This document shows, piece after piece, positions 2,131 through 15,098 of a stretch of DNA of 17,656 bases. The notes beneath the pieces were generated by a model. It saw only the letters and a list, made by a program, of their open reading frames with translations. It was not told the DNA's origin and did not search any database. Location of the stretch: positions 1-17,656 of the forward strand of contig CAMLKW010000074.1 of assembly GCA_946480605.1 (NCBI GenBank). Direction: 5' to 3'. A program made the position numbers and the translations under genes. Position 1 is the stretch's first letter. Every line of letters starts with the position of its first letter. The DNA is from an uncultured Roseateles sp. (lineage in GTDB: Bacteria; Pseudomonadota; Gammaproteobacteria; Burkholderiales; Burkholderiaceae).

Positions 2131-3600
2131 TCAGTACAAGCGCACCGCGCTGTCGAACTGCCAGGTCCGCCTGATCTCCACCACGTCGTAGTCCCGCAGC
2201 AGCGCCGGCGCAAACGCCGGGTAGTTCTCCTGGCTCTGCACGATGCGCCGGATCGCGTCGTCCACGGCCGGCACGCCGCTGGAGCGCACGAAGGTGATGG
2301 ACTCCACCGAGCCGTTGCTGCGCACGGCCACGGTGACCATGGCCTGAGTGTGCGGCTGGCGGGCCAGGTCGCGGGCCACCTCGGGCGTCACGTTCTGCTC
2401 GATCTTGCGCACCCAGGCCTCGCCATAGGCCGCCAGCGCGGCATGGCTGTCCACGCGGCCGAACAGGCGGCCGCGGCGCGCGGGTGCCCAGTCGGGGCGC
2501 TGGCGTTCGGCGTCGCGCCGGGCGGCCTCCTCATCCAACTGGCGGCCGATGGCGCGCTTGCGGGCCTCGCGCTGCTCTTCCTCGACCTGGACCTGCGCTT
2601 TGGCGGCGGCGAGCTGGGCTGCGGCCAGCCGGGCCGCTTCCTGTCGCGCGGCCTCGGCGCGGGCGGCTTCCTGGCGCTGCGCTTCAGCGCGCGCGGCCTC
2701 GGCACGCGCAGCCTCCTGGCGCAGCGCCTCCTGCCGCGCCGTCTCCAGTTGCTGAGCGCCCTGCTGGGCCTGCTGGACTGCGGCGCCGAGCTGGGCCAGC
2801 TCACCGGCGCGGTTGCCGCTGGTCGCGGGGCGCAGGCCTGTGCCGGCACGGCTCAAGGCCTGCACGGCAGGCGCGGACGCCGCCGTCGCAACCAGCGTGG
2901 CGACGGCGGCGCTGGGCAGCACCCGCGCCGCTGCCGCAGCGTCCAGAACGGTACTGTCGGTGCGCTTGTCCAGCCGCAGGCCGCTGCCGGTGCGGCGCAG
3001 CGGCTCGACGGCCGGCGCCGATGCGGCGTCCAGCGCCGCAATGGCAGCCTCCGCGCGCAGCATGGCCAGTTGGGCCGGCTCGGCGCTGCGGTCCTCGCGC
3101 GGGCGCAGCGACTCGCGAGCTCGCGCCAGCGGCTCCAGCGCGGGGCTGGAGGCGGACGGCATCGTGGCGATGGCGGCCGTCGGCAAGGCCGGATCGGTGA
3201 GCACGGTCCAGTGCTCGGGCCGCGCGCGCTCGACGGCAATCAGTGCCCGCGCCGGCGGCGCAGGGGGCGGCTCCGCAGTGTCTGTCAGGCGCACCTCGGT
3301 GGTCGAGGTGTCGGCGGCATCGGGCTCGGCGGATGGTTCGGCCTGCACCGATGGGGCTGCGTCGGCTGGTGCTTCGGCTTCAGCGGCAGGTGCGAGTACC
3401 GCAGCAGGCGGCGCCGGGAGTGGCTGCAACTGCACGCGCAGTTCAGCGGCCTCGGCGCGGCGCTGGTGCCAGGGCAGTTCCAGGCCGGGCAGGCCGTCGC
3501 CCTGGCCGAAGCTCAGCGACAGCAGCAGCGCATGCGCCAGCAGCGACGCGATCAGCGCAGGCGGCAGGCGCCTGCCGCGGCCCGCCGCCTTCAGCCGCAC
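2131..3600 (-). CDS. TonB-family energy transducer with TolA-like coiled coil
   Basis: The 489-residue protein has TonB architecture. A short basic cytoplasmic N-terminus is followed by one membrane segment (about residues 13-31) carrying the SxxxH signature (S19, H23) that TonB proteins use to engage ExbB/ExbD. A long Pro/Ala-rich periplasmic span follows, then an Ala/Glu/Arg/Gln-rich coiled coil of repeated RQEAARAEA-type units (about 275-368), then a TonB C-terminal domain (about 390-489) with the usual VxVxxxGxVxxxxxxxSSG pattern. The GTG start at 3600 is supported by a GAGGA site just upstream and has no in-frame ATG before it. At 489 residues it is much longer than classical TonB (about 240). 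No exbB/exbD and no TonB-dependent receptor lie beside it, so it is an orphan here. A role in energising uptake of xylan fragments is possible but only inferred from proximity; a TolA-like envelope role is the alternative. Confidence 0.82.
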   Translation of the reverse strand: MRLKAAGRGRRLPPALIASLLAHALLLSLSFGQGDGLPGLELPWHQRRAEAAELRVQLQPLPAPPAAVLAPAAEAEAPADAAPSVQAEPSAEPDAADTSTTEVRLTDTAEPPPAPPARALIAVERARPEHWTVLTDPALPTAAIATMPSASSPALEPLARARESLRPREDRSAEPAQLAMLRAEAAIAALDAASAPAVEPLRRTGSGLRLDKRTDSTVLDAAAAARVLPSAAVATLVATAASAPAVQALSRAGTGLRPATSGNRAGELAQLGAAVQQAQQGAQQLETARQEALRQEAARAEAARAEAQRQEAARAEAARQEAARLAAAQLAAAKAQVQVEEEQREARKRAIGRQLDEEAARRDAERQRPDWAPARRGRLFGRVDSHAALAAYGEAWVRKIEQNVTPEVARDLARQPHTQAMVTVAVRSNGSVESITFVRSSGVPAVDDAIRRIVQSQENYPAFAPALLRDYDVVEIRRTWQFDSAVRLY

Positions 3601-3885: not shown

Positions 3886-4331
3886 TGCGTCGTCTTGGGG
3901 CCCCGCTGCAACCAGGTGCTGCGGCGCATTTCGCCGCTGCACGGATCCGCCATTCGGGGGCCGTAGGCATTGACGACGGGACCGCCCCCACGGATGACGC
4001 TGTAGCGCACAGAAACCCCTGCATTTCGCAACAGTCGAGTACGAGCTTCTGCCCGTATTGAGAATCTGCACTTTCCCCTAGTCAGCGGTTCAGGGCATGT
4101 GCCGTCGCATATTCGCGACCCAAGCCCCCCCTAATTTATCGACCATGCGTAAAAACCCCCAAACCCAGGACCAACAGCGGACTTGAAAAACAATCATCGC
4201 GTTGATCGTAGTGGCCACACCGGAGCGCTAGCATGGATTGCCGCTGCCGACTTGTTAGCGCATTTTGGGGAGATCAGCGGCATTCGAAGTGTTATCCCTT
4301 CAATCCCAATATTGAGGACAGAGGAAAATAG
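3886..4331. other. Gene-free stretch, increasingly AT-rich
   Basis: No convincing coding region is visible; short frames on both strands lack start signals and familiar composition. From about 4050 onward the base composition drops well below the surrounding GC level and A-runs appear. Two partial matches to the LacI-family operator pattern occur: a right half-site in 4220-4233 (ending TAGCA) and a left half-site in 4253-4266 (beginning TGTTAGCG). A possible -35 element TTGAAA lies at 4183-4188 without a convincing -10. The stretch presumably carries the promoter and leader of the small secreted protein gene that follows. Confidence 0.4.
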
Positions 4332-4682
4332 ATGAAAAAATCACTCGCTTCACTTTTTTTGGTCGCCACGGCAAACATCTTGCTAGCAATCCCGGCAATT
4401 GCTTCCAGTGGCAGCTCGACCTTTTATGCACCTTCCCATGATGAAGATGGCGGTTGCCGCGAAGCCGGATACAACGAATATGACAATGTCTTTTTTTACG
4501 ACTGGACCATCCCCGCTCTAGCCGACGGCGAGAGTGTGACAGTCACCCCGACCCTGTATTGGCAGAATCCGGGCACCCAATCCCCGCCACCCTCTGGCGC
4601 AGGTTATGAGTACACCTTCACCTGCAACAACGGCACGCTGTCCAGCCCTGGCGCGGGCGCCCCCTGGGGAACCTGGATTTAA
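4332..4682 (+). CDS. Small secreted protein of unknown function
   Basis: A 116-residue product starting at ATG 4332, preceded by an AGAGGA ribosome-binding site about seven bases upstream. The N-terminus (MKKSLASLFLVATANILL, then AIA-SS) is a clear Sec signal peptide cleaved near residue 24. The mature chain of about 92 residues is rich in Ser, Gly, Tyr and Pro, has two cysteines that could form one disulfide, and ends in PWGTWI. No family recognised. Base and codon use (AAA, TTT, AAC, ATT frequent) differ sharply from the neighbours, which suggests acquisition from elsewhere or a non-core role. It stands alone between the TonB-like and GH115-GH8 genes, both on the other strand. The signal peptide and ribosome-binding site make it likely to be real. 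Confidence 0.65.
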   Translation: MKKSLASLFLVATANILLAIPAIASSGSSTFYAPSHDEDGGCREAGYNEYDNVFFYDWTIPALADGESVTVTPTLYWQNPGTQSPPPSGAGYEYTFTCNNGTLSSPGAGAPWGTWI

Positions 4683-5045
4683 GAAAACCGACTGTAGGCA
4701 TCGGTGTAAACAATAGTCCCGATGAGAATGCAATCTCCGCTGACTCACACCATGAGCCAGCGAGCTGAGGGAGTGCAGGCTCCGAAAAAGACGGAAGCGC
4801 GCACATGGTCATGTGCCGCATCCAACCCCCTCCCAGGATATGGCTGCCGGAGTTCAATCGCAGCCTCGGCAGCGAGGCATGGTGCGAGCAGGCGCTGATT
4901 GGCGCTTCGCAGAATCCCTCTCCCCTGACGCCCATTAAACCTACCAACGACGCAGGCTTGGGCGGTCAGCTTGGGGATTGTTGGCCGATATTCGGGCCCA
5001 TTCTGCGTCTGCGGACGCCGGTTACGCCGGTTACGCCGGTGCATT
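4683..5045. other. Gene-free stretch between the small secreted gene and GH115-GH8
   Basis: No gene with a good start signal is seen. A plus-strand frame at 4805-5059 (84 residues) has unremarkable composition, no ribosome-binding site, and runs into the GH115-GH8 3' end, so it is not called. The segment contains an imperfect inverted repeat GGCCGA/TCGGGCC around 4983-4999 and a 9-bp tandem repeat at 5015-5041. No clear intrinsic terminator for the minus-strand GH115-GH8 gene was found. Confidence 0.4.
5015..5041. repeat. 9-bp tandem repeat, three copies
   Basis: Three head-to-tail copies of ACGCCGGTT, the third ending in G instead of T. The array ends five bases before the GH115-GH8 stop codon, on the downstream side of that gene. 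It is divisible by three and would read as a repeated Val-Thr-Pro or Val-Thr-Gly tripeptide on either strand, but no supported gene covers it. It could be a slippage product or a trace of a lost coding region. Confidence 0.6.
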
Positions 5046-8000
5046 TCACCAGGCCCTGAACCGCCCCGTGACATGTAGCAGGTTCATGAACTGAAGCAGG
5101 CCGTCGTAGTACCGCCACTGGCCGGCGGGCGGCGCCAGCGCCCAGAGGTCGTCGACGAAGCGCTTGCCCAGTGACTTGTCGACGAGCAGCGCAGCCACGG
5201 CATTGCTGGAAAGCAGCCCCTTGGAGGGCTCGTCGTTCAGCGGCTTGCCGTCCAGCGTGTAGAGGTGGGGATAGGGCTTGCCGCCGGCGCCCTGCGCGGC
5301 AAAGAAGCTCAGCAGCCGGGTGCTGAGGCCGGCGGCGGTCGGGTTCTTGCCCCACCAGGCCTGGTCCACGCTCCAGTTCACCGCGGTGCGGAAGGCGTCG
5401 TAACGGAAGTCCTCATGGCCCTCCAGCACCTTGGGGCGGCCGTCGAAGTGCGCGTAGTCGGGCGTAAGGCCGGTCTTGGGGTGCGCGGCCTTGCTGAAGT
5501 AGGCGCGGCTGATGTCGGCGATCTCACGCCAGCGCTGGCGGTCCTCGGCCTTGGCGGCGCGGCGCGCCCAGATCTCGTAGAAGGCCGGCAGGTGGTAGGA
5601 CGGGTCGCTGAAGTCGGCCGCGTCGCCCACCGGCACGAAGACGACCTGGCCGTGCTGGGGCGAGAACATCGAGCGCGCGCCTTCCTTGATGCCGCCATTC
5701 ATCGCCTCCTTGTGCAGCATGGCGGTCAGGATCTCCTGCGCCTGGGCCTCGTAGTTGTAGACGCCTCCGCCGCTGCCCCAGCGCGAGGCGGCCATCAGCA
5801 ACGCGGTGGCCATGTACTCCTCGCCGTCGGAGGCAGGTACGGCGTTCTTGCCGAAACCGGCGCAGCCCTCGGGCTTGCACTGCCAGCGGAAGTAGCTCTG
5901 CCGCGGGCCGGAGCGGTAGCGCATATGGGTCCAGGCCCAGTTCCACAGCGCGTCGAAGTCGGCCTTGCGGCCCATCTGCACGGCAATCATCATCCCGTAG
6001 GACATGCCTTCGCTGCGCACGTCGTCGTTGCCCACGTCCAGCACATAGGACGCGGGGCCGTCGGGCGTGGGCGCGGCGGGGTAGACGATGCGCTGATCCT
6101 TGCCGCCCTCGAACAGCGATTTCCAATAACCGTCCAGCTTGGCGGTGATGTCGGCCTCGCTGATGTCCGGCCGCAGCTCGCGCAGCAGGTTGCGGTACTC
6201 GCCGCTTTCGGCGGCACCAGCCGCCGCCACCGTGCCACGTTGCGTGCCGGGCTGCAGCACCAACTTCTGCAGCAGCGCGTTGTCGTCCAGCCGCCAGACG
6301 CGGATGACATGCCGGCCCGCCGGCAGCGTGACCGCGTCGGCGCTCAGCACGAAGCCGTTGTCCATCACGGCGCGGTACCAGTCGCGCTTCTCGCGGGTGT
6401 CCGCGGCGTTGGGCGTGGGGGTCAGGTTCAGCGTCAAGGTCTGCGCGGGGCGGTCGCCGATGGCCACGGCCACGCGGACGCCACCGGTCTTGCGCACGTC
6501 CAGTGTCGGCAGCATGTGCAGCTGCAGGGTCCAGCTGCCGGGCTGCGCCAGGTCCACGTCGTACTCCAGGCGCACGTTGTCGGCCACCGTCGTGGACGCG
6601 CGGCCCTGCGGCAGCGCGACGACGGCGCCCCGGCCGTGGCCGAGATTGGGAATGGCCGTCCAGGTCAGGCCCTTGGCGCTGGTGGCGCGGGCGAACTGCG
6701 TGGCTTCGATGACGTGGCCTTCAGGCGCAGCCCCCTGCTTCTTGGCAGTCAGCTGCCGCTGCACCACCGACGCATCCGCCGTGCCGGCCACACGCTGCAC
6801 GGCCGGCATGATGTCCTTGTCCGGCTGCTGCCAGTTCGTGTAGCCGATGTGGGTCTGCAGCATCATGCCGTCCCACTTGCCGCCCGCGATGGCGTGGTAC
6901 TGGTCGCGGATGGCGCGGTCGCGCGCGAAGGCGGCCTCGGCGCGGTCGGCAAAGACGTTGGCGCGCGGGTCACCGGCCTTGGCGAGCTTGTGGTTCCAGG
7001 CCGCCGCGTAGTACAGCCGGTAGAGGTTGCCCAGCGCGATGACCGGGTGCTCGACCAGCTGGAAGTAGGCGTCGTGCTGGTCCGCGCGCAGCCGGGCCTT
7101 GACCTGCGCGACGCGCGCCTCCAGCGCATCCCACTCGGCCACCCGGCGGCCGAAGTCGCCGCCATCCAGCGCGTCGGCGGTGGCGTTGCCCAGCGGGAAA
7201 GTGGTCGGGTCGATCAGCTCCGGCTTGCGACGCGCGGCGTACTGGGCGTAGCGCGTGACCAGTTCGCCAATCTCGGCCGCGTGCGTGGCGCCGAAAGTGG
7301 CAGCCGCCCAGTCCTTCGGGTAGGCCTTCAGCGCATCGGCCGTCATGGCCTTGGGCGCCCAGGCCATGTCCAGGAAGAAATGGATGGGGTACTCCACCGG
7401 CTTGATGTCGCCGACGTTGACGATCCACAGCGCGTCGGCGCCGTGCTCGCGCGCCAGGTCCATCTGCTGCCAGACCTTCTCGATCTGGTTGGTGTTCAGC
7501 CACTTGTAGTTGCGCGGCGCGCCGACGTAGTCGAAGTGGTAGTACACGCCGTAGCCACCCTGGCGCCTGGCGGCGCCGGGCTCGGGCAGGCGGCGGATCT
7601 GGCCCCAGTTGTCGTCGGCGAACAGCAGCAGCACGTCGTCGGGCACCTTGAGCCCCGCGTCGTAGTAGTCCTGCACCTCCTTGTAGAGCGCCCACATCTG
7701 CGGCGTCTTCTCGGTGGGCTGCTTCGTCACGTCGGCAATGATCTGGCGCTGGTCCCTGACGATGCCTTCCAGCAGCGCCGTCGCGGTGTGCTCGCTCATG
7801 GGCTCGTCGCCGTCGCCGCGCATGCCGACCGTCACCAGCGTGTCGAAGGCCGTGCCGTCGGGCCGGCCCATCATGCGCTGAATGCCGCCGCGCCAGAACT
7901 CGCGCAACTGCGGCGCGTTCTTCGCGTAGTCCCACGCACCGCCCTTGTTGCGCTGCCACTCGTCGTGCGCGCGGCTCATGGGCTCGTGGTGGGACGTGCC

Positions 8001-8834
8001 CATGACGATGCCCATCTCATCGGCCAGCACCATGTTGCGCGGGTCGTCGGCCAGGAAGGCGCGCGGCGGCCACATGGCGGGCCACAGGTAGTTGGCCTTC
8101 AGGCGCAGCAGCAGCTCGAAGACATGGGCGTACATCCTGGCGTTGGTGCCGCCGAACTTCTTCTGCGCCCAGGTGGTGAGCGCGGGGGCCTCGTCGTTGA
8201 TGAAGATGCCGCGGTACTTGACATGCGGCTGGTCGCCGCGCTGGCCGGCCGTCACGAACACGTCGGCCTTCCGCTCGACCGACACGTCCGCCCACCAGTG
8301 CCAGGGGCTGACTCCGATGCGGGCGGACAGGTCGTAGGCGCCGAACACCGCGCCGCGGCGGTCCGAACCGGCGATGACCAGCGCACGCTCCACGCCCGGG
8401 AAGGGTCGGTCGACGACGACCTGGCGGAAGGCCTCCCAGCGCCCCTTCAGGTCGGCCGCCTGCAGCTTGCCGCGACGCTGCAAGTCATCCAGCAGCGGGC
8501 TGCGGCCCAGCTCGGCGATCAGCACCAACTCGCGCGGCGCCCCGGCCGCGTCTTGCAGCAGCCGCGACTCGCGACCGGACACGCGCTGCAGATCGGCCGC
8601 AAAGCTGCGGCTCGCATGCTGCAGCGCCGGATCGGCACCGGCCTCGACCAGCACCGCGGCCGGCTGGCCCGCACGCACCAGACCGAAGCTCTGCCCCCCA
8701 TCGCGCGCGCATACCGAGGCCGGCGCGTTGCACGCAAAGGTGGCCACACTGGCGGACACCAGCCCCAGGCCCAGCACGAGCTGCCTGAACCGGGACAACA
8801 AGGGCCGGGCTTCGGCCTGAGAATTGAACATCAT
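5046..8834 (-). CDS. Exported GH115 alpha-glucuronidase fused to GH8 xylanase/exo-oligoxylanase
   Basis: A single 1262-codon frame. Residues 1 to about 40 form a Sec signal peptide (basic region, then LVLGLGLVSASVATFA). Residues about 45-863 match GH115 alpha-1,2-glucuronidases, which remove (4-O-methyl-)glucuronic acid from xylan: family blocks GIFINDEAP (209-217), KANYLWPAMW (246-255), GTSHHEPM (279-286), ADDNWG (406-411) and HFDYVGAPRNYKWLNT (433-448), then the C-terminal beta domain (about 711-863). A 13-residue Ala/Gly linker leads to a complete GH8 domain (about 877-1262): SEGMSYGMM with the likely general acid E942, DGEEYMATAL with D1003, and YDAFR with the likely base D1146. The DGEEY pattern is closest to reducing-end xylose-releasing exo-oligoxylanases (Rex), but endo-xylanase cannot be excluded. 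Each family normally occurs as a separate protein. No good Shine-Dalgarno precedes the tandem ATGs at 8834/8831. It is divergent from the GH10 gene. Confidence 0.93.
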   Translation of the reverse strand: MMFNSQAEARPLLSRFRQLVLGLGLVSASVATFACNAPASVCARDGGQSFGLVRAGQPAAVLVEAGADPALQHASRSFAADLQRVSGRESRLLQDAAGAPRELVLIAELGRSPLLDDLQRRGKLQAADLKGRWEAFRQVVVDRPFPGVERALVIAGSDRRGAVFGAYDLSARIGVSPWHWWADVSVERKADVFVTAGQRGDQPHVKYRGIFINDEAPALTTWAQKKFGGTNARMYAHVFELLLRLKANYLWPAMWPPRAFLADDPRNMVLADEMGIVMGTSHHEPMSRAHDEWQRNKGGAWDYAKNAPQLREFWRGGIQRMMGRPDGTAFDTLVTVGMRGDGDEPMSEHTATALLEGIVRDQRQIIADVTKQPTEKTPQMWALYKEVQDYYDAGLKVPDDVLLLFADDNWGQIRRLPEPGAARRQGGYGVYYHFDYVGAPRNYKWLNTNQIEKVWQQMDLAREHGADALWIVNVGDIKPVEYPIHFFLDMAWAPKAMTADALKAYPKDWAAATFGATHAAEIGELVTRYAQYAARRKPELIDPTTFPLGNATADALDGGDFGRRVAEWDALEARVAQVKARLRADQHDAYFQLVEHPVIALGNLYRLYYAAAWNHKLAKAGDPRANVFADRAEAAFARDRAIRDQYHAIAGGKWDGMMLQTHIGYTNWQQPDKDIMPAVQRVAGTADASVVQRQLTAKKQGAAPEGHVIEATQFARATSAKGLTWTAIPNLGHGRGAVVALPQGRASTTVADNVRLEYDVDLAQPGSWTLQLHMLPTLDVRKTGGVRVAVAIGDRPAQTLTLNLTPTPNAADTREKRDWYRAVMDNGFVLSADAVTLPAGRHVIRVWRLDDNALLQKLVLQPGTQRGTVAAAGAAESGEYRNLLRELRPDISEADITAKLDGYWKSLFEGGKDQRIVYPAAPTPDGPASYVLDVGNDDVRSEGMSYGMMIAVQMGRKADFDALWNWAWTHMRYRSGPRQSYFRWQCKPEGCAGFGKNAVPASDGEEYMATALLMAASRWGSGGGVYNYEAQAQEILTAMLHKEAMNGGIKEGARSMFSPQHGQVVFVPVGDAADFSDPSYHLPAFYEIWARRAAKAEDRQRWREIADISRAYFSKAAHPKTGLTPDYAHFDGRPKVLEGHEDFRYDAFRTAVNWSVDQAWWGKNPTAAGLSTRLLSFFAAQGAGGKPYPHLYTLDGKPLNDEPSKGLLSSNAVAALLVDKSLGKRFVDDLWALAPPAGQWRYYDGLLQFMNLLHVTGRFRAW

Positions 8835-8930: not shown

Positions 8931-8946
8931 TATGATAGCGATAACA
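8931..8946 (+). promoter_or_regulatory. LacI-family operator consensus overlapping a -10 element before the GH10 gene
   Basis: TGATAGCGATAACA at 8933-8946 satisfies every fixed position of the LacI-family operator pattern TGNTANCGNTANCA and differs at two of fourteen bases from TGGTAGCGCTAACA, the xylose-operon operator described for Caulobacter XylR as I recall it. It overlaps TATGAT (8931-8936), a good sigma-70 -10 element, and ends two bases before the GH10 ATG. Binding would occlude both promoter and start. The matching -35 is weak, so activation by another factor is possible. No LacI-family gene is in the window. Confidence 0.55.
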
Positions 8947-8948
8947 AC

Positions 8949-10103
8949 ATGCTGATCCCCACGCAAGCCAAAAGGCCGCCATCGCGACGCGCCGTCATCC
9001 AGGCGCTGACCCTGGGAGTCGGCGGCATCTCCCTGGCCGGCCGCGCGACGCCGCCCGGCGACGAACCGACGCTGGATGCGCTGGCGCGCATGAAGGGGCT
9101 GCGCTTTGGCAGCACGCTGGGCAGCCTGGGGCGCAGCTCGCGCTTCCATGACGCGGCCTACCGCGAGCTCACCGGCCGCGAATGCAGCGTGCTGGTGGCC
9201 GAGAACGAGACCAAGTGGCCGCAGATGCGGCCCGACCCGAGCCGGCCCTACGACTTCCGTGCCGCCGATGAGATGTTCGCCTGGGCCCGGAGCCGCGGCA
9301 TGGCGCTGCGCGGCCATACGCTGCTGTGGCTGGAGCCCAAGTGGCTGCCCGGCTGGGTCAATGCGCTGCACTACGGCAGCGGCGATGGCGAGGCCGCCCG
9401 CCGCGTGCTGGACGAGCACATCCGCACCACCTGCGGCCATTTCGGCGACAGCATCGAGAGCTGGGACGTCGTCAACGAGGCCATCGCCCCCGAGACGGGC
9501 GAGTTGCGCCGCAATGTGTTCTCGGCCCCGATCGGGGGCGTCGAGCAGATCGACCTCGCCTTCCGCCTGGCCCGCCAGCATGCCCCCAAGGCCCAACTGG
9601 TCTACAACGACTACATGAGCTGGGGCGACGGCAACAACGCCCGCCACCGCGCCGGCGTGCTGAAGCTGCTGACCGAGCTGAAGCGCCGCGGCACACCGGT
9701 GCAGGCGCTGGGCATCCAGGGCCATATAGGCGCGAACATGAGCGAAGCGCCGGCCCGGCGGGCCGCAGAATGGCGGCGCTGGCTGGACGATGTGATGGCG
9801 CTGGACCTGGACATCCTCATCACCGAGTTCGACGTCAACGACAAGGGCCTGCCCGCCGACTTCGCGCTGCGTGACGCCGCCGTGGCTGCCGCCGCGCGCG
9901 ACTGGCTGGATGTGACGCTGGCCGTGCCGCGCCTGAACCGCTTCCTGTGCTGGGGTCTGGGCGACAAGTACAGCTGGCTGCATGATTTCGACCCGCGTGA
10001 GGACAAGCTGCGCAAACGCCCCCTGCCCTACGACGACCAACTGCGTGCCAAGCCGCTGCGCACCGCAATTGCCGACGCGCTGCGCGCCATGCCCGCACGC
10101 TGA
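8949..10103 (+). CDS. GH10 endo-1,4-beta-xylanase
   Basis: A 384-residue retaining xylanase that cuts the beta-1,4-xylan backbone internally. The catalytic domain spans about residues 45-380 and shows the family blocks: TKWPQMRPD (88-96), RGHTLLWLEPKW (121-132), acid/base E177 in SWDVVNEAI, YNDY (219-222), GIQGHI (255-260), and nucleophile E293 in ILITEFDVND. The N-terminus reads KRPPSRRAVIQAL followed by a hydrophobic stretch and AGRA, compatible with a twin-arginine (Tat) signal; Sec export is the alternative. No carbohydrate-binding module is present. The ATG at 8949 is chosen because protein homology begins shortly after it and the open frame upstream is only the antisense of the GH115-GH8 gene. 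A strong ribosome-binding site is lacking. It heads a same-strand gene run, 20 bases before the aldehyde dehydrogenase. Confidence 0.94.
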   Translation: MLIPTQAKRPPSRRAVIQALTLGVGGISLAGRATPPGDEPTLDALARMKGLRFGSTLGSLGRSSRFHDAAYRELTGRECSVLVAENETKWPQMRPDPSRPYDFRAADEMFAWARSRGMALRGHTLLWLEPKWLPGWVNALHYGSGDGEAARRVLDEHIRTTCGHFGDSIESWDVVNEAIAPETGELRRNVFSAPIGGVEQIDLAFRLARQHAPKAQLVYNDYMSWGDGNNARHRAGVLKLLTELKRRGTPVQALGIQGHIGANMSEAPARRAAEWRRWLDDVMALDLDILITEFDVNDKGLPADFALRDAAVAAAARDWLDVTLAVPRLNRFLCWGLGDKYSWLHDFDPREDKLRKRPLPYDDQLRAKPLRTAIADALRAMPAR

Positions 10104-10123: not shown

Positions 10124-11529
10124 ATGACCCCGATCGACAGCACCCCCGCGCAGATCCGTGCGGCCTGCGACACCGCCGCCCAGGCCGGGCCCGCGTGGGC
10201 CGCACTGCCCATCAAGCGGCGCGCCGCCCACCTCAACGCGCTGGCCGACGCACTGCAAGCCGCCCGCGACGCGCTGGTGCCGCTGGCCGATGAGGAAACC
10301 AACCTGGGCGCGGCGCGCCTGAACGGCGAACTGGACCGCACCGCCTTCCAGCTGCGCGGTTTTGCCGAGCAGTTGCTGGCCGGCAAGGCCCAGCCGGTGC
10401 AGGACGACGCCGCCGTGCCTGGCGCCCCGCCCGCCGGCCGCCCGCACCTGACCCGTGTGACTGTGCCGGTAGGCCCGGTCGCCAATTTCGCGGCCAGCAA
10501 CTTCCCGTTCGCGTTCAGCGTGCTGGGCGGCGACACCGCGTCGGCACTGGCCGCCGGCTGCACCGTGGTCGTCAAGGCCCACCCTGGCCACCCCAAGCTG
10601 TCGCGCGCCGTGTTCGAGCTGGCCACGGCCCAACTGCCCGCGGGCGTGCTGCAGATGGTGGAAGGCGCCGGCATCCCGGTCGGCGTGGGCCTGGTGCGCG
10701 ACGAGGCGATTGCCGCCGCCACCTTCACCGGCAGCGTGCGCGGCGGCGTGGCGCTGTGGCGCGAGGCCAATGCCCGCCCGCGGCCCATCCCCTTCTACGG
10801 CGAGCTGGGCTCGATCAACCCGGTCGTCGCGCTGCCCGAGGCGCTGGCCCACAACGGTGCGGCGCTGGCCGCGCAGCTGGCCGGCAGCATCGTGCTGGGC
10901 TGCGGCCAGTTCTGCACCAGTCCCGGCATCGTCATCGTGCGCGACGACGAGGCCGGCCGGGCCTTCGTCAAGCAGCTGGCCGAGGGCTTGGCTGCGGCCA
11001 ACCCGCACGCGATGCTGAACGCCACCATCCGCGCGGGCTTCAATGCCGGCGTGGCCCGGCTGCACGGCCGCAACGGCGTGAAGTCGCTGCTCGCCCTGCC
11101 TGCCCGCGAAGCGGCTCCTGGTGCCCATCTCTTTGCCACCGATGCCGCCAGCTTCCTCGCCGACGAGGTGCTGCGCGAAGAAGTCTTCGGCCCCAGCTGC
11201 GTCGTCGTCACCGTGCGCGACCTGGACGAGACGCTGCAGGTGCTGCAGGCCGTCGAAGGCACGCTGACCGTCACGCTGTGGGGCGCCGACGCCGACACGG
11301 CCGACAACCGCCGCCTGGTGCGCGCGGCGCAGGCCGTCGCCGGCCGCGTGCTGTTCGCCGGCGTGCCGACCGGCGTGGCCGTCACGGCCGCGCAGCAGCA
11401 CGGTGGCCCGTGGCCGTCGTCCACCAACGGCTTCAGCACCAGCGTGGGCTATGCGGCGATGGAGCGCTTCCTGCGCCCGGTCGCGCTGCAGGATGCGCCG
11501 GCCTGGCTGATCGACGCGCGAGGTCAGGC

Positions 11530-11533
<4 letters not shown>
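10124..11533 (+). CDS. NADP-type aldehyde dehydrogenase, probably alpha-ketoglutarate-semialdehyde dehydrogenase
   Basis: A 469-residue ALDH-superfamily protein with catalytic C264 (LGCGQFCTSPG), general base E227 (YGELGS), the FTGS turn (201-204) and K151 in VVVKAHPGHP. The VGPVANFAASNFPFAFS block and AHPGHP are typical of the NADP-preferring group that includes bacterial alpha-ketoglutarate-semialdehyde (2,5-dioxopentanoate) dehydrogenases and Vibrio fatty-aldehyde dehydrogenase. In the oxidative pentose pathway this enzyme makes 2-oxoglutarate; if the adjacent RraA-type protein is an aldolase, glycolaldehyde could be the substrate instead. It appears to lack roughly the first 25-30 residues usual for this group, with no in-frame ATG upstream. 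Its stop overlaps the dehydratase start by four bases (ATGA), indicating translational coupling. Cytoplasmic. Confidence 0.9.
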
Positions 11534-13254
<1,721 letters not shown>

Positions 13255-13256
13255 CC

Positions 13257-13967
13257 ATGAACCCAGACACCCGCAAGAAGCTCATGGGCGTCAGCACCGC
13301 CACGCTGTGCACGGCGCTGTTCAAGCGCGGCCTGAAGAATCAGCTCATCCAGGGCGTGCTGCCGCTCAACCCCGGCCTGCCCAACATGGTGGGCCCGGCC
13401 TACACGCTGCGCTACATGCCGGCGCGCGAGGACCTGAACGGCATCGAGGTCTTCAAGAACCGCGCCCACCCGCAGCGCGTGGCCGTCGAGGAGTGCCCCG
13501 AGGGTGCTGTGCTCGTCATCGACAGCCGCAAGGACGCCCGTGCCGCCTCGGCCGGGGGCATCCTCGTCGCGCGGCTGATGGTGCGTGGCTGTGCCGGCGT
13601 CGTCACCGACGGCGGCTTCCGCGACAGCCCGGACATCGCCAAGTACACGATGCCGGCCTACCACTCGCGCCCCAGCGCCCCGACCAACCTCACGCTGCAC
13701 CAGGCCATCGCCATCAACGAGCCCATCGGTTGCGGCGACGCGCCGGTGTTCCCGGGCGACGTCATCGTCGGCGATGCCGAAGGCGTCATCGTCATCCCGG
13801 CCCACCTGGCCGACGAGATCGCCAACGAAGCGGTCGAGATGACCGTGTTCGAGGACTTCGTGCAGGAGACCGTCATGGCCGGCCGCAGCGTGCTGGGCCT
13901 GTACCCACCGACCGACCCGGACGTGGCCGGCCTGTTCGCCGCCTGGCGGGCCGCAAAAGGCCGCTGA
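13257..13967 (+). CDS. RraA / HMG-CHA aldolase-family protein
   Basis: A 236-residue member of the RraA-like fold, which includes RNase E inhibitor RraA and class II pyruvate aldolases acting on 4-hydroxy-4-methyl-2-oxoglutarate. The aldolase-type metal/pyruvate motif is present as GG-x-RD (G119, G120, R122, D123), matching the R123/D124 pair recalled for the Pseudomonas enzyme, with the preceding GGILVARLMVRG helix and the downstream GCGDAPVFPGD block (158-168). Retention of the catalytic Arg-Asp argues for an enzyme rather than an RNase regulator. The gene begins two bases after the dehydratase stop and ends directly against the ROK start (TGAATG), so it is translated with them. A role as 2-keto-3-deoxypentonate aldolase or dehydratase is inferred from position only. 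Confidence 0.87.
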   Translation: MNPDTRKKLMGVSTATLCTALFKRGLKNQLIQGVLPLNPGLPNMVGPAYTLRYMPAREDLNGIEVFKNRAHPQRVAVEECPEGAVLVIDSRKDARAASAGGILVARLMVRGCAGVVTDGGFRDSPDIAKYTMPAYHSRPSAPTNLTLHQAIAINEPIGCGDAPVFPGDVIVGDAEGVIVIPAHLADEIANEAVEMTVFEDFVQETVMAGRSVLGLYPPTDPDVAGLFAAWRAAKGR

Positions 13968-15098
13968 ATGCTGACGAAAGCCGAGAACCACAGCGGGCAG
14001 GCCCAGCTCAAGCGCGGCAACTGCATGGCGATCATTCGCCAGCTGCGCGTGCATCCGGGCCAGTCGCGCGTGGACTTGGCGAACGCGCTCGGCCTCACCA
14101 AGTCCACCGTCAGCACCCTCACCCGCGAGCTCATCGACGGCGGCTGGCTGCTGGAGCGCGAGGTGCTCGTCACGGGCGACATCGGCCGTCGCCCAACGCC
14201 GCTGTTCGTCGACCCGACACGGCTGCTGCTGCTGGGCACCCAGGTCGGCATCGGCGTCGTGCGCGTGGTGCTGACCTCGCTGACGGGCGACGTGCTGGCG
14301 GCCCGCAGCGCCGGCTACGACACCAGCCTCGACGTCGAGGCCTGCATCGGTGAGCTGACCCGCACCATGCTGGCCGTGGCAGCCAAGCGCGGCGAGGCGC
14401 AACGCATCATCGGCATCGGCGTGGGCCTGCCCGGCGGCGTGGACCAGGCCCGCGACCAGCTCGTCTTCGCGCCTCACGTGCACTGGCACCAGGTGCCCTT
14501 CGGCGCGCTGCTGCGCGAGGCGCTGCACGCCACACCGCTGTCCGGCGTGCCCGTCTTCATGCAGAACGACGCCGACGTCGCCGCCCTGGGCGAGAGCGAG
14601 TTCAACCCGTCATCCTCGGCCGACCCGCTGCTGCTGGTCCTGGTCGGCGAAGGCGTGGGCGCGGGGCTGGTGGTGGGCGGCCGGCTGCTGACCGGCGCGC
14701 GCGGCCTGGCCGGCGAGGTCGGCCACATGGTGCTGCAGATCGACGGCCCGCGCTGCTCCTGCGGCCGCCGCGGCTGCGCCGAGGCGCTGATCGGCAACCG
14801 GGCGCTCATGCGGCAGGACGGCGACGCCCCCGACCTCGCCAGGGCCGGGCAGTACCTGGGCGTGCTGCTGCAGAACCTGGCCGTCGCCTACGACCCGGCC
14901 TGCATCGTGCTGGGCGGCCCGGCCCTTGAGCTGGGCGATGCGCTGCTGGCGCCGGTGCGCGAGACGCTGCAGCAGTACGCGCAGGCGGCAGGTCTGCCCG
15001 AGCCGACGCTGCGCGTGGCCCGCTTCGGCGCCGACGCCATCGCCGTGGGCGCCGCCGCGCTGGCGGGCTATCAGCTCACGCAGTCCACGCTGGCCTAA
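13968..15098 (+). CDS. ROK-family transcriptional regulator
   Basis: A 376-residue regulator of the XylR/NagC type. Residues about 20-62 form a winged helix-turn-helix (QSRVDLANALGLTKSTVSTL), and about 85-370 a ROK sugar-kinase-like domain with IGVGLPGG (149-156), QNDADVAALGE (199-209), GEVGH (249-253) and the zinc motif CSCGRRGCAE (263-272). In this family a sugar or sugar acid binds the kinase-like domain and releases DNA. The ATG lies directly on the RraA stop codon (TGAATG), so it is the last gene of the xylanase/dehydratase run and probably controls it by feedback through xylose, xylonate or a xylo-oligosaccharide (inference). Its TAA overlaps the stop codon of the convergent TerB-like gene. 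The ligand is unknown. Confidence 0.9.
   Translation: MLTKAENHSGQAQLKRGNCMAIIRQLRVHPGQSRVDLANALGLTKSTVSTLTRELIDGGWLLEREVLVTGDIGRRPTPLFVDPTRLLLLGTQVGIGVVRVVLTSLTGDVLAARSAGYDTSLDVEACIGELTRTMLAVAAKRGEAQRIIGIGVGLPGGVDQARDQLVFAPHVHWHQVPFGALLREALHATPLSGVPVFMQNDADVAALGESEFNPSSSADPLLLVLVGEGVGAGLVVGGRLLTGARGLAGEVGHMVLQIDGPRCSCGRRGCAEALIGNRALMRQDGDAPDLARAGQYLGVLLQNLAVAYDPACIVLGGPALELGDALLAPVRETLQQYAQAAGLPEPTLRVARFGADAIAVGAAALAGYQLTQSTLA

Follow-up and report, generated by a model that had tools for sequence, protein, structure and literature searches.

A GH115-GH8 fusion gene of Roseateles-type bacteria encodes a putative bifunctional xylanolytic enzyme

Introduction

The nearest characterised analogue of the protein described here is BeCE15A-Rex8A of Bacteroides eggerthii, in which, as in our fusion, an enzyme acting on glucuronic acid stands N-terminal to a xylan-active GH8 and is joined to it by a short potential linker (PMC8417218). 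At the same time, the N-terminal half of that protein is a glucuronoyl esterase (CE15) and not a GH115, its GH8 has been proven to be a Rex enzyme, and its few homologues found are from Bacteroidetes (PMC8417218). The alpha-glucuronidases BoAgu115A and wtsAgu115A are dimers with an A-B-C-D domain layout that the fusion has in common with them; unlike the fusion, they have no second catalytic domain (PMC3879575, PMC9063842). In such four-domain xylan-active GH115 dimers, one protomer contributes its domain D to the lining of its partner's xylan cleft (PMC3879575, PMC9063842). For the GH8 half the reference is TtGH8 of Teredinibacter turnerae (PDB 6g00), which is a single-domain endo-xylanase from a shipworm symbiont, in contrast to a two-enzyme fusion, with E73 as catalytic acid and D281 as catalytic base, both shared with the GH8 of the fusion (PMC6173055).

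Here we describe a gene of an uncultured Roseateles sp. that joins GH115 and GH8, found in a window of 17,656 nucleotides (the whole stretch of DNA analysed). The GH115-GH8 architecture is new and the modules themselves are known; no characterised GH115-GH8 enzyme was found in the literature searched, in agreement with an earlier sequence-only reading of this DNA, which knew of none.

Results and Discussion

The fusion is encoded by a single open reading frame of 1262 aa with an ATG start and no internal stops (Table 1). Its product (computed mass 139.7 kDa, or 136.1 kDa without residues 1-34) matches PF15979, PF17829 and PF01270 (the last at residues 936-1254, E 4.6e-28), each time with a score beyond the curated cut-off, which bears out the sequence-only reading in placing GH115 and GH8 in one frame. 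GH115, GH115_C and GH8 are all present in 69 of the 120 best homologues listed, excluding an assembly artefact, a frameshift or chance. No stop or frameshift between the halves, which would have spoken against a fusion, was seen either in the window or in 13 whole-genome loci, all of them open across the joint; these loci, which have no stop codon in the part matched, also exclude a sequencing error. With the fusion present in the listed homologues and, within the genus, as one frame in 13 of 20 genomes, the gene is no assembly accident, and its confinement to one strain can be rejected.

Table 1. Features of the fusion gene and its surroundings, in window coordinates.
Feature	Residues	Position	Strand	Basis or remark
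Fusion gene, GH115-GH8 protein		5046..8834	-	ORF, Pfam domains, homologues
N-terminal export signal, hydrophobic (putative)	1-34	8733..8834	-	read by eye
GH115 catalytic domain, PF15979	201-540	7215..8234	-	Pfam E 4.7e-148
R339 and D343 of GH115 catalytic domain	339, 343	7806-7820	-	
GH115_C, domain D, PF17829	709-864	6243..6710	-	Pfam E 2.7e-28
Tether between the two enzymes	about 863-872	6219..6248	-	low conservation, variable length
GH8 catalytic domain	873-1262	5049..6218	-	
GH8 acid E942	942	6009-6011	-	
GH8 D1003	1003	5826-5828	-	
GH8 base D1146	1146	5397-5399	-	
LacI-family-type operator (candidate) TGATAGCGATAACA		8933..8946	+	divergent promoter
GH10 xylanase, divergent		8949..10103	+	start codon by eye, uncertain
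Aldehyde dehydrogenase, L-arabinonate dehydratase, RraA-like protein, ROK regulator		10124..15098	+	

Both halves are under selection, with median dN/dS values (14 genes, 91 pairs) of 0.36 for GH115 and 0.29 for GH8, compared with 0.64 for the tether (79 of the 91 pairs usable), and, judged from sequence, both look functional. Conservation falls to 0.30 over residues 1-34, against 0.85 in the GH115 core, and 18 of the 19 fusions aligned have Cys35 and Cys42, the remaining one showing a gap there; the hydrophobic N-terminus suggests that the protein is probably exported. A full-length model (residues 64-1262, from an alignment of close relatives only) was poor (pLDDT 71.8, pTM 0.61), so the arrangement of the domains is unreadable from it.

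We think it reasonably probable that the fusion is a bifunctional xylanolytic enzyme, secreted or periplasmic, in bacteria of the Roseateles/Pelomonas type, combining GH115 debranching with a probably endo-acting GH8. The GH115 half would take (4-O-methyl)glucuronic acid off glucuronoxylan at internal positions; the backbone stretch thus exposed would be hydrolysed by the GH8 half, which is probably a TtGH8-type endo-beta-1,4-xylanase. Such an architecture could serve as a ready-made enzyme for hardwood glucuronoxylan.

Outside the genus, samples of 399 genomes from the family, 399 from the order, 398 from the phylum and 395 from Bacteroidota yielded no fusion (overlapping samples, with at most two candidates per genome scored and E cut-offs of 1e-50 for the family and 1e-40 for the other three). 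A similar GH8 occurs in 2571 long proteins; among the best 120 of these, 68 carry GH115 and 52 carry other partners, with PF15979 in none of those 52. Neighbouring GH8 and GH115 matches were seen in at least 4 of the 53 Bacteroidota genomes having a match (two candidates per genome scored), as separate frames with 81-238 bases between them in G1182, G1207 and G1427 and at a distance of 2.2 kb in G1501.

Some relatives have GH115 and GH8 as two genes, which indicates that the fusion is dispensable. For example, Roseateles cellulosilyticus P8 has a separate GH115 (P0070, 75% identical to that of the fusion) and GH8 (P0178, 77%) at the same locus, with an Sde182-type gene between them. P0173 is not one of these split forms: it is a fragment with GH115_C and GH8. 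Our trees were quick ones with SH-aLRT support only, and many of their forks are weakly supported; a single origin with the split forms outside the fused clade was rejected for both the concatenated tree (p-AU 1.2e-7) and the GH8 tree (p-AU 1.2e-5), as was a single clade of all split forms (p-AU 3.2e-5). A clade of P0174, P0177 and P0178 was not rejected (p 0.16), and the fused P0055 is sister of the split P0074, presumed to be paired with P0176 from the longest contig of 12760 bases given for both (among the standalone GH8 rows P0174 and P0176-P0180, nearness to the own GH115 is known for P0178 only). The split forms nest within the fused group, and the fused or split state has therefore changed more than once, either by one fusion followed by splittings or by several fusions.

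This history bears on the strongest competing explanation, that neighbouring co-regulated genes were joined neutrally, with equal amounts of the two enzymes and no kinetic consequence, which we hold to be quite possible, at somewhat below even chances. Fused and split forms alternating in the trees, the separate genes at the same locus in R. cellulosilyticus, a tether that ranges from 2 to 21 residues, and the finding that fused BeCE15A-Rex8A did not differ significantly from a mixture of its domains (PMC8417218) all agree with it, while the fused form being the commonest state seen (13/20 genomes; 69/120 listed homologues) argues against it. Joining a debranching to a backbone-cutting enzyme may or may not bring a benefit, the nearest characterised analogue showing no significant gain, and the closely related fused and split versions described here would allow the same enzyme pair to be compared joined and apart.

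Turning to the GH8 half of the proposed bifunctional enzyme, the three acids that the sequence-only reading had picked out, E942, D1003 and D1146, lie at those positions and align with E73, D133 and D281 of TtGH8. Their equivalents are invariant in 61/61 aligned fusions, and the acid E942 and the base D1146 are also invariant in 60 GH8 rows, standalone ones included. TtGH8 is the best solved match of the GH8 half, both by sequence (201 of 383 positions identical, 52%) and by structure of a good GH8 model, and, with an endo-xylanase as nearest relative, debranching plus backbone cutting appears likelier for the fusion than debranching plus end-trimming. Of the earlier proposal that the fusion couples debranching with end-processing, the first part is kept and the second has become less likely. 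An exo-type (Rex) GH8 that trims oligosaccharide ends is accordingly somewhat doubtful in our view, given the closeness to TtGH8 and given that the Leu-His-Pro loop (a two-residue, Rex8A-type insertion) is absent from the GH8 half in the alignment, the stretch at this point being of equal length in 60/61 fusions and three residues longer in one. At the same time, BeRex8A also lacks the loop yet is a Rex, and the missing loop is therefore no proof of endo action. Marks of the TtGH8 type are open +2/+3 subsites and action on polymeric xylan.

The 13-residue Ala/Gly linker of the sequence-only reading is a linker in part: residues 871-882 (AAGAAESGEYRN) line up with AAGAVATGEYRN, the N-terminus of the domain in TtGH8, and belong to the native GH8 start, which places the true tether at about residues 863-872. 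Conservation of residues 863-877 is 0.41, and the distance from the GH115_C end to the GH8 'RN' varies from 2 to 21 residues in 61 fusions (18 in the window). That the one frame yields two proteins, through an internal start or proteolysis in the Ala-rich tether, would fit the poor conservation of the tether and the signal-like N-termini (by eye) of standalone GH8 relatives, which suggest separate exported proteins, but is very unlikely, as a GH8 made from an internal start would be without an export signal and the window and the 13 loci are open across the joint. Such an N-terminus is shared by P0177 and P0178, the latter differing in this from the fused GH8.

The GH115 half retains the barrel residues at which mutation makes BoAgu115A less active (15/15 identical in the window protein by alignment, including R328, D332, E375 and H422), and the same 15 are invariant in 61/61 aligned fusions; the BoAgu115A table has 4 further residues, which do not affect activity. 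Alignment to BoAgu115A and SdeAgu115A, domain D included, gives a four-domain layout without the C+ insertion, and by analogy the GH115 module of the fusion may dimerise like the characterised four-domain xylan-active GH115 enzymes. Mutating E782, E785, Y788 or Y792 in domain D of BoAgu115A lowers activity (PMC3879575), and 0/4 of these residues are kept in the fusions, whose profile has P, G, E and E, which makes the argument for a dimer with crossed clefts an indirect one. An invariant Trp819 of the fusions aligns three residues past Y792. Tyr771 of wtsAgu115A is reportedly not conserved across all xylan-specific GH115 members (PMC9063842), suggesting that the domain-D cleft residues are not general to GH115.

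Being joined to domain D by a short tether, GH8 might sit near the debranching cleft of the partner protomer. A more far-reaching version of the proposed bifunctional enzyme, a crossed two-enzyme machine in which one protomer of a GH115 dimer clears the chain and the GH8 of the other cuts it, with this coupling gained and undone repeatedly, strikes us as unlikely; if it were true, the genus would be a natural experiment and a direct test of the kinetic benefit from fusion.

Divergent from the fusion gene is a GH10 xylanase (PF00331, with E 7.9e-73 when the frame is taken from 8928; the frame from 8949 opens MLIPTQ). The genes beyond it include an L-arabinonate dehydratase (NF009559, 1050.7 bits against a cut-off of 882) and are predicted to serve sugar-acid catabolism beside the xylan enzymes; the gene order, whole or partial, recurs in Roseateles loci L001, L002, L007 and L036. 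The motif TGNTANCGNTANCA, which we take to be the general LacI-family consensus, has a single match in the window and 0 in 200 shuffles. This candidate operator ends two bases before the presumed GH10 ATG, which makes either the GH10 start or the operator role uncertain. It resembles the Xanthomonas xyl-box (PMC10380989), and the presence of a GH10 xylanase, sugar-acid genes and a xyl-box-like operator at the locus counts for a xylanolytic reading.

Of 108 loci, duplicates included, 18 have the exact motif in the 600 bases upstream. Across 17 Roseateles-type loci (the window included, with L002 split, L098 broken and L111 unfused) the operator is exact in 5, has one mismatch in 2 and two mismatches in 10, a level of two or fewer mismatches that block shuffles reach as well, 4-23 times in 200 for each locus. 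A core, CGCTAYCA, spotted post hoc and lacking a dedicated control, is present in 17/17 related loci.

Domain architecture and catalytic residues

The sequence-only reading placed GH115 and GH8 in one uninterrupted frame, and this is borne out by the ORF reading of the window, which gives a single open frame of 1262 codons, and by the Pfam domains (listed in the table below). By eye, residues 1–34 look like an export signal. The GH115-GH8 architecture is real and conserved, is built of known modules, and is apparently uncharacterised: among the open-licence PMC papers listed by literature searches, no GH115-GH8 enzyme was found.

The mutation table of the characterised alpha-glucuronidase BoAgu115A lists 23 residues (PMC3879575); those mapped here are the 15 in the catalytic barrel and the four in domain D. 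All 15 catalytic-barrel residues whose mutation lowers activity are identical in the aligned window protein. D343 aligns with D332 of BoAgu115A; the counterpart of D332 in wtsAgu115A is D303, the residue proposed as general acid (PMC9063842). The GH8 acids E942, D1003 and D1146 stand at the positions previously assigned to them, and E942 and D1146 match the catalytic acid (E73) and the base (D281) in the Teredinibacter turnerae endo-xylanase TtGH8 (PMC6173055). These three acids and the 15 barrel residues are invariant in 61/61 aligned fusions (the window protein plus 60 out of 65 listed homologues that reach 1200 aa).

The nearest published fusion found is BeCE15A-Rex8A, a Bacteroides eggerthii CE15-GH8 enzyme whose full-length form and mixed domains performed alike (PMC8417218). 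The GH115-GH8 protein is likely bifunctional.

Features of the window (residues refer to the fusion protein)
Feature	Position	Strand or place	Basis
GH115-GH8 fusion gene	5046-8834	-	ORF reading
PF15979 GH115	residues 201-540	- strand gene	Pfam, above cut-off
PF17829 GH115_C	residues 709-864	- strand gene	Pfam, above cut-off
PF01270 GH8	residues 936-1254	- strand gene	Pfam, above cut-off
LacI-family-type putative operator TGNTANCGNTANCA	8933-8946	divergent promoter	motif match
GH10 xylanase		divergent from fusion gene	profile matches
Aldehyde dehydrogenase		after GH10 xylanase gene	profile matches
Sugar-acid dehydratase (NCBIfam: L-arabinonate dehydratase)		after aldehyde dehydrogenase	profile matches
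RraA-like protein, then ROK regulator		after dehydratase	profile matches
Alanine-rich TonB-family protein	2131-3600	-	TIGR01352
116-aa ORF, signal-like start	4332-4682	+	no Pfam match

The joint and a possible arrangement

The first residues of the TtGH8 domain align with 871–882, and similar N-termini (GAAVSGVYRN, GAAETGLYRN) occur in standalone relatives, P0184 and P0186 among them. Much of the 13-residue "Ala/Gly linker" described earlier is therefore GH8, leaving a tether of about ten residues; across the 61 fusions, 2 to 21 residues separate the fixed anchors on either side of it. The tether is poorly conserved, at 0.41 over residues 863–877 versus 0.85 in the GH115 core and 0.86 in GH8 (19 sequences). 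Purifying selection acts on GH115 and GH8 alike, with median dN/dS of 0.36 and 0.29 against 0.64 for the tether (14 genes), values that are rough because codon use in these genes is very G+C-rich.

The four-domain GH115 layout, with the C+ insertion absent, makes it a reasonable proposal that the protein would form a GH115 dimer, with GH8 placed near the partner's cleft. BoAgu115A itself acts where a decorated xylose has other xyloses on its flanks. Against the proposed dimer arrangement, the BoAgu115A domain-D cleft residues are not kept in the fusion (0/4 of those tested); E782, E785, Y788 and Y792 lie opposite P, G, E and E in the fusion profile. Trp819, three aligned positions past Y792, is invariant. 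The full-length predicted model is too poor to inform the proposal.

Distribution and history

All three domains occur in 69 of the best 120 listed homologues, 65 of these being at least 1200 aa; the names given are Roseateles or Pelomonas, plus a single Rubrivivax and an unspecified Burkholderiales MAG. Of the 20 genomes that the search database groups in the genus of R. caseinilyticus, 13 carry the one-frame fusion and three gave no match. The two genes are separate in R. cellulosilyticus (G002), GH8 stands alone at the edge of a contig in G018, and the relatives in G020 are distant and unfused. In G014 (C97; L098, L101) a fusion copy is broken between two frames near the start of the GH115_C region, which may reflect either true decay or an assembly error. 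Outside the genus, no fusion was found in overlapping samples of 399 family, 399 order, 398 phylum and 395 Bacteroidota genomes, with at most two candidates scored per genome. GH8/GH115 adjacency does exist beyond Roseateles, in Bacteroidota, with gene order reversed: in separate frames, the GH8 match lies 81–238 bases upstream of GH115 in G1427:C31, G1207:C5 and G1182:C66, and 2.2 kb upstream in G1501:C202.

Fused and standalone Roseateles-type sequences form one group for GH8 (SH-aLRT 100%) and for GH115 (98%), with split forms nested within the fused group. The simplest reading is a single early fusion that later came apart several times; alternatively, adjoining genes may have fused independently on several occasions. 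Fused rows as one clade were rejected (p-AU 1.2e-7, concatenated; 1.2e-5, GH8 alone), as was a single split clade (p-AU 3.2e-5). The six standalone GH8 rows in those tests have signal-like N-termini by eye, and an adjoining GH115 is known for one and inferred for another. At L111, in another genome of the family, an unfused GH115 sits beside the dehydratase gene in a locus of this type. In R. cellulosilyticus (L002), the unfused GH115 and GH8 genes are separated by a third (12656-14113, +), whose product has a nucleoside-hydrolase-like Sde182 domain and an Sde0182_C domain.

Locus and putative operator

The GH10-to-ROK gene order is seen again, whole or in part, in relatives. The putative operator is the sole match to its motif in the window (0 in 200 shuffles) and ends 2 bases ahead of the presumed GH10 ATG. 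In sequence it closely resembles TGGTAGCGCTAACA, the xyl-box to which the XylR repressor binds in Xanthomonas (PMC10380989). The operator's core CGCTAYCA is present in all 17 of the Roseateles-type loci that were examined, and 5 of these have the 14-base motif exactly. We infer that the locus is under xylose control.

Relatives of the TonB-family protein directly follow GH8 in L001 and L002, and one lies ~8.7 kb downstream in L036. The 116-aa ORF falls within 4001-5000, where the GC content of the window is lowest (0.556).
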